A stretch of 64,000 bases of DNA from Antrodiella citrinella (lineage: Eukaryota > Basidiomycota > Agaricomycetes > Polyporales > Steccherinaceae): contig SGPM01000082.1 in assembly GCA_004802725.1 (NCBI GenBank), forward strand, positions 1 to 64,000. Reading direction: 5' to 3'. The translations under genes were made by a program, and so were the position numbers. The notes under the pieces are model-generated. The model was given only the letters and a program-made list of their open reading frames with translations. It was not told the origin of the DNA and ran no database searches. Positions 17,814 to 53,221 of the stretch are shown here, piece after piece. Within the stretch, counting starts at the first letter, position 1. The number at the start of each line of letters is the position of its first letter.

Positions 17814-20800
17814 ATGCATGTTCTATGCGTAGCTGAGAAACCATCCATATCAAAGTCGATCACTCAGATCCTTTCCGGTGGACAGTTTACTACGGTGAGC
17901 ATATCCTAAACTCATCTGCGGTGTGTTCTCTGAACATCCATAGCGTCCAAGCCCAGCCAACTTTATAAAGAACTATGACTTCAACTATCCTCAGACCAAC
18001 TCAACCTTCACGGTGACAGCCGTTGCTGGTCATATGTTGGTTCACGACTTCGGGCCAGCCTACAGCAAATGGACAAGCTGCGATCCTTTCACACTCTTTG
18101 ACGCGCCAATCCTAGTAGAGACCGCAAAGGACAAGCTGCCAATCAAGAGAAACCTTGTGTCAGAAGCGAGAAAAGCTCAAATGCTGATGATCTGGACGGA
18201 TTGTGACAGGGAGGGCGAGCACATCGGCGCTGAGGTTGTTAAGATATGCAGAGAAGGCCGTCGCAACATCACGGTGAAGAGAGCACGGTTCAGCGCTATC
18301 ATCGCACAGTACGTGACTGGCTTTTGCTTGATAAACGCACCTCTAATCGCAATACGTGCCGCAGACAGATCCACCATGCAGCCCAGCATCCTGTTGAGCT
18401 GGACATGAATCAATCAAATGCGGTGGAGGCCCGTATTCAGCTTGATCTGCGTATTGGCGCGAGTTTGACTAGACTGCAAAGTCTGAAGTTGCAGCAACGT
18501 TTTCCGCAACAACTGACTAGTGTGATCTCATATGGTAAGTTGTCCGCAGTCATACGGTCAATCTCGTTGAACATCAAACAGCCACTTCCTTTCGATAGGA
18601 CCATGTCAGTTTCCCACGCTGGGTTTCGTTGTCGCGCGATACAACCGTGTCAAGGCCTTCCGACCAGAACCATTTTGGTACATATATTTGGCTATGGCCG
18701 CCCGTGGTTCTGATGACGAAGAGATACCCTTCACATGGCGTCGAGGCCATCTATTTGATCATGATATCGCGGCGACGATTTATCGGGAAGTGATGAATGC
18801 AGATCGAGCCCTGATTACTCGTGTGACGCAGAAGGAAACCAAGAAGTGGTAAGCTATAGAGGTGTTCCATCAGGGTCACAAATGTTTGACAGTGGCTCAG
18901 GAAGCCATATCCGCTAACCACTGTAGAGTTGCAAAAAGCGGGATCCAGGATACTCAAGATATCACCCAAGAGGATACTAGATGTAGGCCGCTTTCCAAAG
19001 TCTTGACTCGCTAAACTAACTCTACCTAGATCGCGGAATCTTTATACCAGCAAGGCTTCCTTTCATACCCACGCACAGAGACCGACCAATATGATCCTGC
19101 ATTTGACTTCGGGAGTCTCATCGAGAAGCAGAAGAACGATGGTGCTTGGGGTGCTTTCGCGGACTCGTCAGTGATGATGTCCCATTTGTGGGAACATATA
19201 GCTGATTTGCTTGTCATAGTTTACAAAACGGCGGCTTTCAGGCCCCCAGGCGAGGCAAGAAGAACGATAAGGCCCATCCGCCCATCCACCCGACCGCATA
19301 TGCTGGTAATCTCGCCAATGACGACAAGAGAGTATATGAATACATCACACGTCGTTTCTTGGCTTCGTGCTCTAAGGATGCTCTAGGTTCGGAGACCACC
19401 ATCGAAGTCACTTTTGGTAGAGAAGAGTTCTACACTACCGGCCTCATTGTTCTGGAGCGTAACTATCTGGAAGTGTTTCCCTACGACAAGTGGGCCAGCA
19501 AGGAGTTGCCTGATGTGCAGCAAGGTCAAACATTCGTTCCTTCTGCTTGCGAACTAAGACAAGGTCAGACGTCAAGACCTACCCTCCTCACCGAAGCGGA
19601 CCTCGTATCTGAGATGGACAAGAACGGCATAGGTATGTTTGTAATCCTGTTTCCCTTCGTCGATGTTCACACTCACCTCTCACCTCTCCGTAGGCACCGA
19701 CGCGACTATTGCGCAACACATACAGACTATCATTGATCGTAAATACGTGATGGAGCATAAACCTGGTGCTACGAAGTATCTCGTCCCGTCTACATTGGGT
19801 ATAGCGCTCGTTGATGGCTACAACGCTATCGAGTATGACAAAAGTCTATCTAAACCTGATCTACGGCGCGACGTGAGTGCTGTCCCTTGACTGTTTGAAT
19901 GCAACAAGCTCAACATCAGGATCAGACTGAACGGGACATGGTGAAAATATGTGACGGGGTAAAGACACAGGGGCAAGTGCTCGCGGAGAATATCGAACGA
20001 TACAAAGAGGTATATGCGAAAGCAAAACGCGACTTCATGCGCATTATCAATGTAAGTCGTCTTGCCATGCAGGCTTTGCTCACGTCAAGGTCCTAACTTG
20101 CGAATAAAGAGTGTCAACGACCGTCTGCAAGGTAACCAGATCTCTTACGATCTAGACTTTGGAGACGACGATGGCGACGAAGGTGGAAACGGGGGAGATG
20201 GTGGTGGTGCCGGGGGTGGAGGTGCCGGGGGTGGTGGAGGTGGTAGAGGCAGCCGCGGAGGAAGAGGCGGGAGGGGCTCTCGGTCTGCACCGACATCCAG
20301 AAGAGGGCGTGGGGGGAACACCGGCGGTGCTGCTGCGCGACGGCGAGATGACGACGGTGAGTGTCTTGTCAGCTGTTCCTTCGTGGTCTCACACCGCTCT
20401 CTTCTTGAAGACGACCGGCCCGCCCCTCCAGCTCCAGCTCCAGCGCGTAGACGACCGCCAAACTCGACGAACACGCACAACCGTAACCTCTCTGCTGGCG
20501 TGAATTGTAATTGCGGTGTGCCCGCTTCAGACCGACAGACCGGCGACGGACGACGGCATTGGAGCTGCGGCAAAAGCGACACATGTCAGTTCTTCCAGTT
20601 CATAGACGGTCCGTCTCGTCAAGGTACCGCACAAGGTCGTCCAGGGCCATCCGTTCGCGGGGTTGGTGGAGGTGTCGCGAAGCAATGTGACTGCAACAAG
20701 CCCGCTATATTGCTAGTGACGAAGCAAGGCGAGAACGCGGGGCGAAAGTTTTGGAAGTGTAGCGGTCCGACAGACGCGAAGTGTAAATACTGGGAATGGG

Positions 20801-21845
20801 CTATCGATGCGGAGATCGAGGGAGTCCCAGTCCTGAACGAAGGAGTTGGCGGGGGTGCTAGTGCTCGAACTGGGAGTTTTGGGAACGACGGTGGCAGTGG
20901 TGCTTCTGGTTCTCGTCCAAGCGGTGTTGGTGGCACAACCGGTGAATGTTACAAGGTACGCTTCACTCAGAATCATTGTTCTTGTTGGTACTGATGCATC
21001 TTTTAGTGTGGTCAGGAAGGTCATTGGGCAAGTTGTAAGTCAATAGTACTACTTCACCGCATCCCACAAATTGACTTCTGTTCGTATCCAAGCGTGTCGT
21101 GATACTGGAAGCGGAGGTGGTAGTGGAGCTGCGCCGCGCTCGAGAAGCTTCGGAACTGGGGCCGGTGCTAGCTCAGGCTCGTCTGGGGTTTGCTACAAGT
21201 GCGGAGAGGAAGGACATTATGCCAATGGTAAGTAATCATCCTGTCTGCGTGATTCTAACGGTCCGCCCAGCTGACATCCATCACGCCCTAGATTGTCCAC
21301 AGGCCGGAGGTGGAGGCGCAAGTGGAAGTGGCGGTGGTAGAGGCGGCGGAGGAGGCGGGGGTTCCTCCATGGCGTGTTACAAATGTGGCGAAGACGGACA
21401 TTATGCTAAGGGTATGTCGTATCATTACGATCAATTTGCGGTCTATGTGATCATTCATGATCGCGTGTGTAGATTGCCCGGGTGTAGGTGGTGATGGCAG
21501 CGGTAGCGGGGGTCTCAGACCACCTCGAGCTACTTCTGACATTGTTTGCTACAAGTGCAAGCAATCAGGTCACTACAGCAACGGTACGCTTGTTTCAACT
21601 CTCCCCTATGTTATTCTACTTACATATTCACAGCTTGTACGAATACCTCGTCTGGAGCCAAACGCTCGTCTTCTTCAGCGTCGAACCCAAGGGTAGCAAA
21701 GCGAGGACGAGGGCGTGGGCGGGGCCGATCCACGAGCTCAACAAGAGGTCGAGGAAGGAAGAAGGCGGGATCGAGGACGCCTGCTGCTCAGGACGAGGAA
21801 GAGGACTATTTCAGCGACGGGGATATTGAGTTTGCAGCGTTCTAG
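17814..21845 (+). CDS. TOP3: DNA topoisomerase III with GRF and CCHC zinc fingers
   Basis: Type IA topoisomerase that, with a RecQ helicase and Rmi1, dissolves recombination intermediates in the nucleus. ATG 17814 gives MHVLCVAEKPSISKSI, the TOPRIM glutamate/lysine motif; the second TOPRIM motif is DCDREGEHIG. The active-site tyrosine lies in FLSYPRTETDQYD (near 19060), followed by HPPIHPTAY and the conserved EMDKNGIGTDATIAQHI, which crosses an intron. After the catalytic core comes a Gly/Arg-rich linker (about 20160-20340) and two GRF-type fingers (CNCGVPASD... WSCGKSDTCQFF and CDCNKPAILL... KCKYWEW). Then four CCHC zinc knuckles follow: CYKCGQEGHWASC, CYKCGEEGHYANDC, CYKCGEDGHYAKDC and CYKCKQSGHYSNAC. 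A basic RG-rich tail ends in EEEDYFSDGD. The metazoan TOP3A class also has GRF fingers; the run of four knuckles is unusual. Confidence 0.93.
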
Positions 21846-50402: not shown

Positions 50403-50848
50403 TTACTATTGACATAGGTGAGTTTCTCGTCATTTTGCGCGGTGCGTCGTGTTCGACTCGTGTTCGCTCACCTCGGGTTCCTGAACAGGCTGCGCATAGT
50501 GGCTGTTGCTATAGGAGCTATTGACGAAATCGTCTTCGAGATCTACGCTCTCTTCCGATCGCTATAGACAAATCAGCAGCGGCGAATTAGTCGTGCTGAT
50601 TCCTTTGAATCATACAGTGTGGCGATGCATTTACTGACCTCCCCCACAGGCTGCGCTGAATAATGACTGTTGCTGTAGGAGCTGTTGACGAAGTCGTCTT
50701 CGAGGTCCGTGCCTTCTTCCTCTCGCTACACCAAAACACGCGCAAGTCAGCAGTAGTCGACTTAATCAAGACGTGGCCCTACCTTGTGAGCCGGACGTGC
50801 AACGACACACAAAGCCATGAATACAGATACAAGGAGTGAAGCCTTCAT
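50403..50848 (-). CDS. Candidate RiPP (dikaritin-like) precursor peptide with duplicated exon
   Basis: Small secreted precursor. Exon 1 (50783-50848) encodes exactly a signal peptide plus a short propeptide, MKASLLVSVFMALCVVARPA then HK. Exon 2 (50639-50725, 29 codons) begins with Arg, so a Lys-Arg Kex2 site is formed across the splice. Exon 3 (50472-50561, 30 codons) repeats exon 2: both contain DLEDDFVNSSYSNSHY followed by AQPV, with two Tyr each. The introns at 50726-50782 and 50562-50638 are both phase 0. Exon 3 either reads on to TGA at 50430 or is spliced (50406-50471) to a final exon that is just TAA, giving 94 or 81 residues. The repeat, Tyr content, signal peptide and the neighbouring UstYa gene fit a dikaritin precursor (ustiloxin, phomopsin, asperipin class). 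The identity of the core is inferred. Confidence 0.68.
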
Positions 50849-52005
50849 ACTGCAGTTGCCGATCTCGATTGAGCTGCTTTATGGGAGATGGAAAGAAGAG
50901 TGTTTGAAGCGCAAAAGTTGACTCGATGATCAGCTTTTATACGCCGAATTTTCTACTGACAAGTTGGTTCGCCTGTATAGATCGATATGCTGCTTCCACA
51001 TGTCACTCGCCGTATCTTGCTTTTGCAGACTTCAATTTTCCATTTGGAATTACTCTCGATGCGCAGCATTCAAAGAACAAGCCCCGTCAAGGTTAAGGCA
51101 CGTATCTCGCTCTCAATGTCTCTTTCCAGGCATGTTTGTGATCGTCTCTTCCCACTGGAATACGTGCTCAAAGCAGCTTTTAGTGCAGGCAGGGTGTTTT
51201 CGTGATTCTGGCATCGTTGCTGTCGTGCTCACACCCACAGAATTCGCACCGCTCTCGTTTCATCTATCAAACAGACCGACGCCACAATACCTTGTGACTG
51301 GTTGCGCCGGCAGTAGTGTTGTCAATGTTAAAGTTCTCAATGTTCCAGGTGCAGTTTTGCAAGCGTGTTCAACCGGTGACATTGCATTTGGCGATCACGC
51401 AATCCAACAAGGGACCACGGCTCTTGTGAGCATTACCATCGGCAAACGTCCAATATCTGTGGCTCGGCCGATGCATGTGTCCAGCGATAGCCGACGCGTT
51501 TACCGATGCAGGAGCAACCCCCAACATTGAATTTCTAATGTTGGACGTCGCTCGGGGTGTGCCGGAAAAGTCGATTTTCACATGTGCCACACCTATTGAC
51601 GCGTTTCTCTGATGTCATTCTATGAGGACGTGTGGTCAAATAAATTCGCAGTGTATGCTCCCTGAGGTCAGCTAAGTTTCACTGCTGGAATTGAATACGC
51701 GGTCTGATGGGTCTACCTAGACAGGAGATTGCACAATCGTTCGGTCCTGAGCAATACCACATGATGTGCAGCATTAATCTCTCCACAAGGGATGCGATGT
51801 CAATATGTCAATGTCGGTGTCAATACTGTCAATCGCGCAATCACTTCGCAGTCAATACCACGATGATTTGATATGTTCCCATTCTTCAGGCATGTCTCAG
51901 TCCATGTCCGCCGTGGCCTGCAGACCAAACCAGACTTACCCAGCGCAGATATCGTGTCCTTCGTATATCTGGCCCATTCTGAGAATATGAGGCAGTGAAA
52001 CCCCC
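50849..52005. other. Shared promoter region of the precursor and UstYa genes
   Basis: A 1.16-kb divergent intergenic region. I see no gene in it: the longest open frame (50964-51530, plus) lacks an ATG and family resemblance. It may hold the regulatory sites that co-regulate the two genes. Confidence 0.4.
50934..50941 (-). promoter_or_regulatory. TATA box of the peptide precursor gene
   Basis: On the minus strand TATAAAAG stands about 86 bp before the start codon at 50848, a placement consistent with a strongly and conditionally expressed gene. Confidence 0.6.
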
Positions 52006-53032
52006 ATGGACGACCATCAATACTCACCATTGCTCGGCGAACTGACCTACGAGCACGAGAACTTGAAGGATACGACCTCCCCACCAGTCGCGTATTTTTC
52101 CTCTCGCCGTCGTCAGTTTGCGCTATGGGCTGCTTTAACGGTCGAGACTATTGCCATTATCTGTCTTCTTAGTGTTTTATGGGCTAGGACGCGACCTCAA
52201 TGTCCGACCAACCCAGTATATCCACAAGTGCTCTACTGTACGTCACATAACTTGCATCTATAACTATTGCATGCTTATGAGATTCGGACAGCACCCGCTC
52301 AGGAAGCCCTAGAATACCAGCCCAAAACCTTCGCCATGGGTTTTGGTCGTCATAAAACTATCTACCAAGGCGAGCCCTCTGACGAGGTTGACAGGGCTTG
52401 GGATGATCTTTATAATAGTAAGCAATTATATGCTGATCTTTCAAAGTCACGGACGACTCAACTTTTCTTACAGGCTTTGGGCTGTCGCAGATTCCCAAGG
52501 CGCAAGCTCGTCTGTTGCCCAATAAGACATTACCTATTCCAGGTGACGAAGAAAATTATGCCGTAGGTTTGGCGGTATTCCACCAGCTACACTGTTTGGT
52601 CAGTCCGGGTTCTTCCTATATCACCTTTCAAATCTGACTTTGATATCCAGAACTTGCTGCGGCAAGGCCTCAGTCCTGAATACTACAGGGATCCGGTCAC
52701 AGGTACTATCGGCAACGTGTCTCCCGAGGACTGGCCCGAGCATGCCGGTCACTGCTTGGACAACATCCGACAGAGCTTAATGTGTGCGGCGGATATCAGG
52801 TACGCATACTGTTGCTCCAATCCTCGTATTGCACGTCTAATGGCTTGCACTTTGCAGTCTTGTAGTGTGGCAGTGGGTGGAGCCGGATAATCGAGCGTCC
52901 ATCATGATGGACACTGTTCATTCTTGTAGAAATTACGACAGGATCGTGGATTGGGCTAAGAATCATCGTCGGAAGTTACATTTCGATATGAATGTTCATG
53001 TAGAAGACGATATTGTAATACCAACCTTTTGA
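52006..53032 (+). CDS. UstYa-family (DUF3328) protein
   Basis: UstYa/DUF3328 proteins are membrane-anchored fungal oxidases that cyclise dikaritin RiPP cores, for example in ustiloxin and asperipin pathways. Five exons were read: 52006-52237, 52292-52417, 52474-52598, 52651-52799 and 52858-53032. They sum to 807 nt, 268 residues, with every junction in frame. The N-terminus is short and polar, followed by one membrane helix (FALWAALTVETIAIICLLSV). The family landmarks are SPAQEALEY, YQGEPSDEVDRAWDDLYN, the first motif FHQLHCLN and the second HAGHCLDNIRQSLMC. These give both the HxxHC and the HC...C elements thought to bind metal. It is head to head with a small repeated secreted precursor 1.16 kb away, and the next gene, DAD2, starts 190 bp downstream. 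Confidence 0.9.
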
Positions 53033-53221
53033 CTTGGACGTGAGTTGCGCCCAACTAGGATATATAAGACTGCTTTAGGGTGGCTTGTAGAAGGCGATGG
53101 CAAATAGTCGCAAACATCATCCTGGAAGAGAGAGAAGTTGAGATCTTGATTCTTGAGCACCCTTCCTTGCGCGCAGATCGCACCTGGCGCGATATATGAG
53201 TGATCTGCCTTCAACTTCATC

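Follow-up and report, generated by a model that had tools for sequence, protein, structure and literature searches.

A putative two-gene cassette for a dikaritin-like, UstYa-modified peptide in the polypore Antrodiella citrinella

The window analysed here, a stretch of 64,000 nucleotides from the wood-decay polypore Antrodiella citrinella (Polyporales, Steccherinaceae; C584:1-64000; genome 30.0 Mb in 602 contigs), contains a short gene for a repeat-bearing peptide precursor head to head with a gene of the UstYa (DUF3328) family. All gene models, in the window and on the contig C565 that holds a second such pair, were built by hand from sequence alone. The precursor gene lies at 50848-50403 on the minus strand, and its model has four exons and 81 residues, with no stop or frameshift. 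Exon 1 (50783-50848) encodes a signal-peptide-like segment, MKASLLVSVFMALCVVARPAHK, exon 2 (50639-50725) encodes repeat 1, REEEGTDLEDDFVNSSYSNSHYSAQPVGE, and exon 3 (50472-50561) encodes repeat 2, RSEESVDLEDDFVNSSYSNSHYAQPVQEPE; the translation is these three segments in that order, one per exon, followed by the stop. The hydrophobic N-terminus ends in VVA-RP, as judged by eye and from its likeness to the C565 precursor and to the environmental proteins P0121 and P0124. The terminal exon would consist of a TAA stop (50403-50405) immediately 3' of intron 3. This placement fits the public protein from C565, which ends exactly at its last repeat exon; read-through instead of the last splice would lengthen the protein by 13 residues, with its end at 50430. 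A TATA-like box, TATAAAAGC, is found at 50933-50941 on the minus strand, about 90 bp upstream of the precursor ATG.

Both repeats carry the identical core DLEDDFVNSSYSNSHY, each in its own exon. The precursor scored 114 in our repeated-exon scan, and with its identical 16-residue core it has the near-identical repeats that define Kex2-processed repeat proteins (KEPs). Over 22 aligned codons, 13 bases differ between the repeats. Of these 13, the 16 core codons account for six, none of which alters an amino acid; the six codons 5' of the core hold six differing bases in amino-acid-changing codons and one synonymous change. The core had been delimited by its own identity, and we therefore ran simulations that placed 13 changes at random across the whole 22-codon alignment, keeping the stop-free outcomes (n=129,603). 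A run of at least 16 unchanged residues holding at least six changes arose in 2 of them, and at least seven synonymous base changes arose in 274. Because synonymous-only core changes are this rare in the simulations, it is very likely that the core is translated and under selection. A chance repeat was rejected on the same synonymous-only changes, together with the existence of relatives that bear the core.

The UstYa gene occupies 52006-53032 on the plus strand (exons 52006-52237, 52292-52417, 52474-52598, 52651-52799 and 52858-53032). It encodes 268 amino acids with an N-terminal hydrophobic stretch. The divergent start codons are separated by 1,157 bp (50849-52005), so that a repeat precursor is clustered with a UstYa gene as in dikaritin loci. 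The Pfam UstYa match (E 3.8e-55) spans profile positions 4-220 of 220, which is the whole length of the family. The motif HxxHC(x)nHxxHC is complete, with HQLHC at 156-160 and HAGHC at 192-196. In an alignment of 40 sequences (two paralogues and 38 of the best 120 listed relatives), H156, H159, C160, H195 and C196 are invariant and H192 is present in at least 90%. The original prediction, made from the DNA of the window, had placed here a complete UstYa gene with both His/Cys motifs, head to head with a signal-peptide precursor carrying a repeated tyrosine-containing segment. Both genes were found at the coordinates it gave. For the precursor, the gene model, the synonymous-only core changes, a second copy and environmental relatives all bear this out.

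The best 120 of 205 relatives include proteins from named Polyporales that are 65-69% identical to the window UstYa; the best named ones come from Steccherinum ochraceum, Cristinia sonorae, Somion occarium and Panus rudis. The closest named relative, P0001 from Steccherinum ochraceum (69% identical), was modeled with AlphaFold2 as a stand-in for the window protein (70 sequences, mean pLDDT, the predicted local distance difference test, 78.6). In the model, residues 36-65 form an N-terminal helix and the two motifs sit on helices 153-167 and 186-207, a layout that appears to resemble the one described for CctR. Comparison of the P0001 fold with the Protein Data Bank (PDB) gave no match at E <= 0.001, and a search of the PDB for sequence relatives gave none at E <= 1. 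The HxxHC(x)nHxxHC motif of CctR is its binuclear copper site, and activity is lost when the motif is mutated (PMC12435403). The motif is common to the DUF3328 copper enzymes CctR, AprY and ApnU and to the window enzyme, which by family is a putative binuclear copper oxidase.

The window precursor has a single dibasic Kex2 site, K22-R23, located 5' of repeat 1. It is formed across intron 1 from the AAG that closes exon 1 and the CGA that opens exon 2. Exon 3 also opens with CGA; as both repeat exons start with R, a dibasic site hinges on the last codon of the preceding exon. At the junction of repeats 1 and 2 this codon is GAG, which gives E-R. Alternative exon 2 donors that would restore K-R were sought and none was seen; the donor used, GTCAGTAAATGCATCGCC, sits where C565 has GTGAGTAAATGCATCGCC, and is fixed by the like intron there. 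In the C565 precursor the exon 2/3 junction has AAG (K-R) and the exon 3/4 junction has GAG (E-R). Repeat exons apparently end in K in the environmental proteins P0122 and P0125 and in Q in P0121 (limits by eye). As far as the sequence indicates, one Kex2 site is thus available for release of the cores and none lies between them. The Kex2 site announced in the original prediction is present at K22-R23 and missing at the repeat junction.

Contig C565 holds a second head-to-head pair of precursor and UstYa genes, 821 bp apart. The two UstYa proteins are identical in 213 of 268 alignment columns and share the exon pattern; synonymous divergence (dS) is 0.89 and nonsynonymous divergence (dN) 0.10, with dN/dS 0.117. 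In exon 1 of the two precursors 15 of 22 residues are identical, the starts of intron 2 are alike, and the TATAAAAGC box is common to both. At the nucleotide level, window positions 40001-64000 (24 kb) were compared to a 30-kb part of C565. Only two blocks match, within the limits 50618-53120. The first, 50618-50941 (65.5% over 345 columns), runs from the precursor promoter to intron 2 and ends at the edge of the TATA-like box; the second, 51954-53120 (76.1% over 1,175 columns), covers UstYa. The stretch between the genes (50942-51953), precursor exon 3 and all flanks were unmatched at the threshold used. As the likeness is confined to the two genes, the simplest reading would be that both were copied together as one unit. 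C565 as an allelic contig is ruled out by the dS of 0.89 and the unlike flanks.

Exons 1-4 of the C565 precursor model are identical to the public protein EUX98_g3330 (Antrodiella citrinella, 92 residues); a fifth exon (IKP) is absent from that protein and was dropped. A different core, SYIEDGTTMVRYxVQ (SYIEDGTTMVRY), occurs in exons 3 and 4 in two nearly identical copies, and exon 2 lacks tyrosine. The comparison indicates that the C565 and window enzymes are under purifying selection while the precursor core has been exchanged. Exon 2 of C565 (L016:6420-6491) resembles a degenerate FVNSSYSNSHY repeat from which the tyrosines are gone. Further along the contig, starting some 2 kb past the final repeat exon of this cassette, lies another repetitive secreted protein with many RR motifs, built of ARRLNSTGSTHSP units (L016:8865-9682, plus strand).

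Across the genome, the UstYa profile gave 15 exon-level matches, counted as at least 12 genes, at nine places (the window and eight 10-kb regions, L009-L016). The repeated-exon scan (score of at least 72; 195,318 bases), which misses non-repeated precursors, found repeat precursors at four of the nine, namely the window, C565, C309 and C168, and three of these are head to head with UstYa. A small control from outside the UstYa regions (the rest of the window and L017-L022, some of it on the same contigs) gave a single match at this score, a zinc-knuckle repeat near 21 kb of the window. A Gly-rich protein with repeated CCHC zinc knuckles is encoded there, at 20200-21500 on the plus strand. The recurrence of precursors beside UstYa, together with the second pair of gene-confined likeness and the conserved core, makes a functional pairing of repeat precursor and UstYa oxidase well supported at the level of the genome.

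The two remaining precursors differ in kind. That on C309 (L013:5373-4211, minus strand) has about nine exon-encoded AADxLxxEAxxxVVLAA(K)R units with KR or KKR sites and nearly without aromatic residues. It is head to head with one of two UstYa genes, at about 1.1 kb, the UstYa start being set by eye. The C168 precursor (L009:7133-7529, plus strand) has KK sites, XA dipeptides and about four copies of RIDATSFGNLQKK. It lies about 0.7 kb downstream of the UstYa match, on the same strand, in a region that contains 418 N, and it resembles basidiomycete KEPs with the STE13 signature (PMC6339444).

The core FVNSSYSNSHY is present in two proteins from environmental contigs, P0121 (E 4.7e-4) and P0122 (E 7.2e-4), found in a database search that yielded five candidates. 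A profile search with both precursor types returned five proteins at E <= 10 among 2,116 candidates. Three of them, P0121, P0122 and the C565 protein P0123, had been part of the alignment used as query; P0124 (FVNSSYSNSSY, E 1.7e-11) and P0125 (FVNSSYSGSSY twice, E 0.94) were new. Against a profile of window-type units alone, P0125 reached E 7.5e-4 at equal database size, with a large composition-bias term (18.9 of 36.4 bits). Among 20,000 shuffles the top score against this profile was 12.5 bits, and P0123 stayed below the report threshold. In all, four environmental proteins carry FVNSSYSxSxY. They look like unspliced open frames, and their exon limits were set by eye. In the seven repeat units compared, which were chosen for having the core, the Phe and the two Tyr keep a fixed spacing. 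As part of its refuting condition the original prediction named a peptide gene without UstYa nearby; in this genome the core was found only beside UstYa, save for a single weak match on C8 (E 0.02, 39% identity).

The genes flanking the pair had been described as housekeeping genes. MED12 is confirmed, with a Pfam match over the cut-off (E 3.2e-28). DAD2 is represented by a match below the cut-off to its first exon (E 4.3e-4, 21.1 versus 26.9 bits), and the SCYL1-like gene by HEAT repeats in a single exon, also below the cut-off (E 7.4e-5). A 202-amino-acid open frame between the two start codons has no Pfam match and was rejected as an extra gene. The public proteins listed (best 120 of 205 for UstYa; 2 of 2 for the precursor search) include neither the window UstYa and precursor nor the C565 UstYa, and the public annotation may lack or mis-model the window pair and the C565 UstYa.

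In our reading, the two genes form a cassette that produces a secreted ribosomal peptide of a dikaritin-like kind, modified by UstYa, and we give this reading a probability of about 0.68. The polypore would then probably make a modified peptide of the dikaritin-like class. The signal peptide would bring the precursor into the endoplasmic reticulum and the secretory pathway, and the membrane-anchored UstYa would oxidise the repeated core DDFVNSSYSNSHY in the secretory lumen. The most likely reaction would link side chains of the regularly spaced Phe-x4-Tyr-x4-Tyr. Such a linkage best fits the conserved residues, on the pattern of asperipin-2a, where a DUF3328 enzyme joins a Tyr phenol oxygen to a Phe beta carbon (PMC12186524) and two linkages start at internal tyrosines (PMC9233826). 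Kex2 would cut after the single splice-made K-R ahead of repeat 1, freeing the product; with E-R at the internal junction, both cores may leave the window precursor together, in a single peptide of about 58 residues. We infer expression, signal-peptide and Kex2 processing, action of the enzyme on the window peptide and its chemistry, and we take cyclisation or cross-linking from the enzyme family. Of the original proposal that the pair makes a cyclic or crosslinked peptide, the functional pairing is upheld and the cyclisation stands on family grounds; the precursor is not a textbook dikaritin.

Several observations weigh against the proposed cassette. The window precursor lacks the dibasic Kex2 sites between repeats that are a criterion for KEPs, and with E-R at the junction Kex2 is not expected to separate the two cores. 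In this the window copy also departs from the textbook dikaritin. Five of the nine UstYa places (L010, L011, L012, L014 and L015) showed no repeat precursor at the score used. The C565 precursor does not have the FVNSSYS core; used as the query in a protein search of this genome, it missed the window precursor. Evidence that the two precursors are alike therefore comes from the matching DNA block, exon 1 and intron 2. The environmental relatives come from unnamed species and are possibly not independent. Despite UstYa relatives that are 65-69% identical, no core in proteins of named fungi was returned among the 5 and 2,116 candidates scored, a negative that is limited by the frequent lack of annotation for short genes.

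The precursor could be a KEP of the usual basidiomycete type, the source of a linear secreted peptide (a signal, pheromone-like or surface peptide), and the substrate of the neighbouring UstYa could be something else or other peptides only. KEP peptides found in four agaricomycetes are linear or minimally modified (PMC9769878), which also counts against our reading, and DUF3328 genes lie close to only 103 of 1,680 KEPs in basidiomycetes, as compared to 1,647 of 5,372 in ascomycetes (PMC7329392). However, the pair is present twice with likeness limited to the two genes, precursors stand beside UstYa at four of nine places, three of them head to head (with the C309 start set by eye), and the conserved core is centred on two Tyr and one Phe. 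A purely linear product is quite unlikely. If the enzyme does act on the core, it might do so without cyclising, by hydroxylation, dehydrogenation or halogenation. DUF3328 enzymes include the hydroxylase CctR and a halogenase (PMC12435403), and a title in a reference list has UstYa family proteins installing dehydroamino acids in phomopsins. The fixed Phe/Tyr/Tyr spacing is, however, what side-chain linkage would lead one to expect, with the reservation that the seven units were selected for the core and that the C565 units are without it. We regard a non-cyclising modification as unlikely.

Decay of the window precursor is very unlikely. It would have lost its internal Kex2 site and been left with two repeats, the active copy being elsewhere, and E-R in the window does differ from the K that ends the P0122 and P0125 repeat exons (by eye) and from K-R at C565 exon 2/3. 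Yet the frame is unbroken and the core changes are synonymous only; the linked UstYa frame is intact, with a paralogue dN/dS of 0.12. Ends that are not dibasic also occur in C565 (E-R) and P0121 (Q), and thus the missing K is not peculiar to the window copy. The cassette reading can also be extended, tentatively and with considerable doubt. FVNSSYSxSxY would then mark a conserved basidiomycete family of UstYa-cross-linked peptides from a two-gene cassette copied as a unit, with one core per exon and a protease site assembled by splicing (K-R across the intron). Single K-to-E changes at exon ends would fuse neighbouring cores, so that the secreted product of the window copy would be a single peptide of about 58 residues bearing two modified cores, and in C565 the core would have been exchanged under a conserved enzyme.

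With the ascomycete dikaritins (ustiloxin, phomopsin and asperipin-2a) the locus shares a repeat precursor, here predicted to be secreted, adjoining UstYa/DUF3328, a Tyr/Phe core and at least one Kex2 site. It differs in its basidiomycete host, in having two genes only, in its one repeat per exon and in the core FVNSSYSxSxY. Dikaritins are classed in a review under ascomycete ribosomally synthesised and post-translationally modified peptides (PMC9233826), and the 16 UstYa-like genes of Pleurotus were described as 'probably involved in dikaritin production' (eLife, PMC8893723). The kind of locus is already known in silico, in that Umemura 2020 (PMC7329392) reported basidiomycete repeat precursors near DUF3328 genes, the same pairing in the same phylum. 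As set out there, either the cyclisation factor is not the same in the two phyla, or in Basidiomycota cyclisation 'might hardly occur'. That survey required Kex2-separated repeats in annotated proteins, and the two-repeat window gene with its E-R junction may have escaped it. The linear KEP peptides of Vogt 2022 (PMC9769878) have repeats in common with the window precursor, as well as the signal peptide and Kex2 processing that are predicted for it; the main text of that paper mentions no UstYa partner, with no occurrence of UstY or DUF3328. Our literature search, which covered titles and the starts of abstracts and left most subscription papers outside full-text reach, found no characterised UstYa-modified basidiomycete peptide, and a full-text search gave no match to the string VNSSYS. 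We did not find the FVNSSYSxSxY core family, the exon-modular Kex2 site or the second cassette in print.

The UstYa-modified peptides named in the literature cited here are ascomycete, and a self-contained cassette with a selected core would be a compact example from a polypore that lends itself to direct testing. Both the FVNSSYSxSxY motif and the exon-modular architecture may go unnoticed in surveys of annotated proteins. The C565 cassette with its exchanged core would amount to a natural experiment on the tolerance of UstYa enzymes for new substrates.

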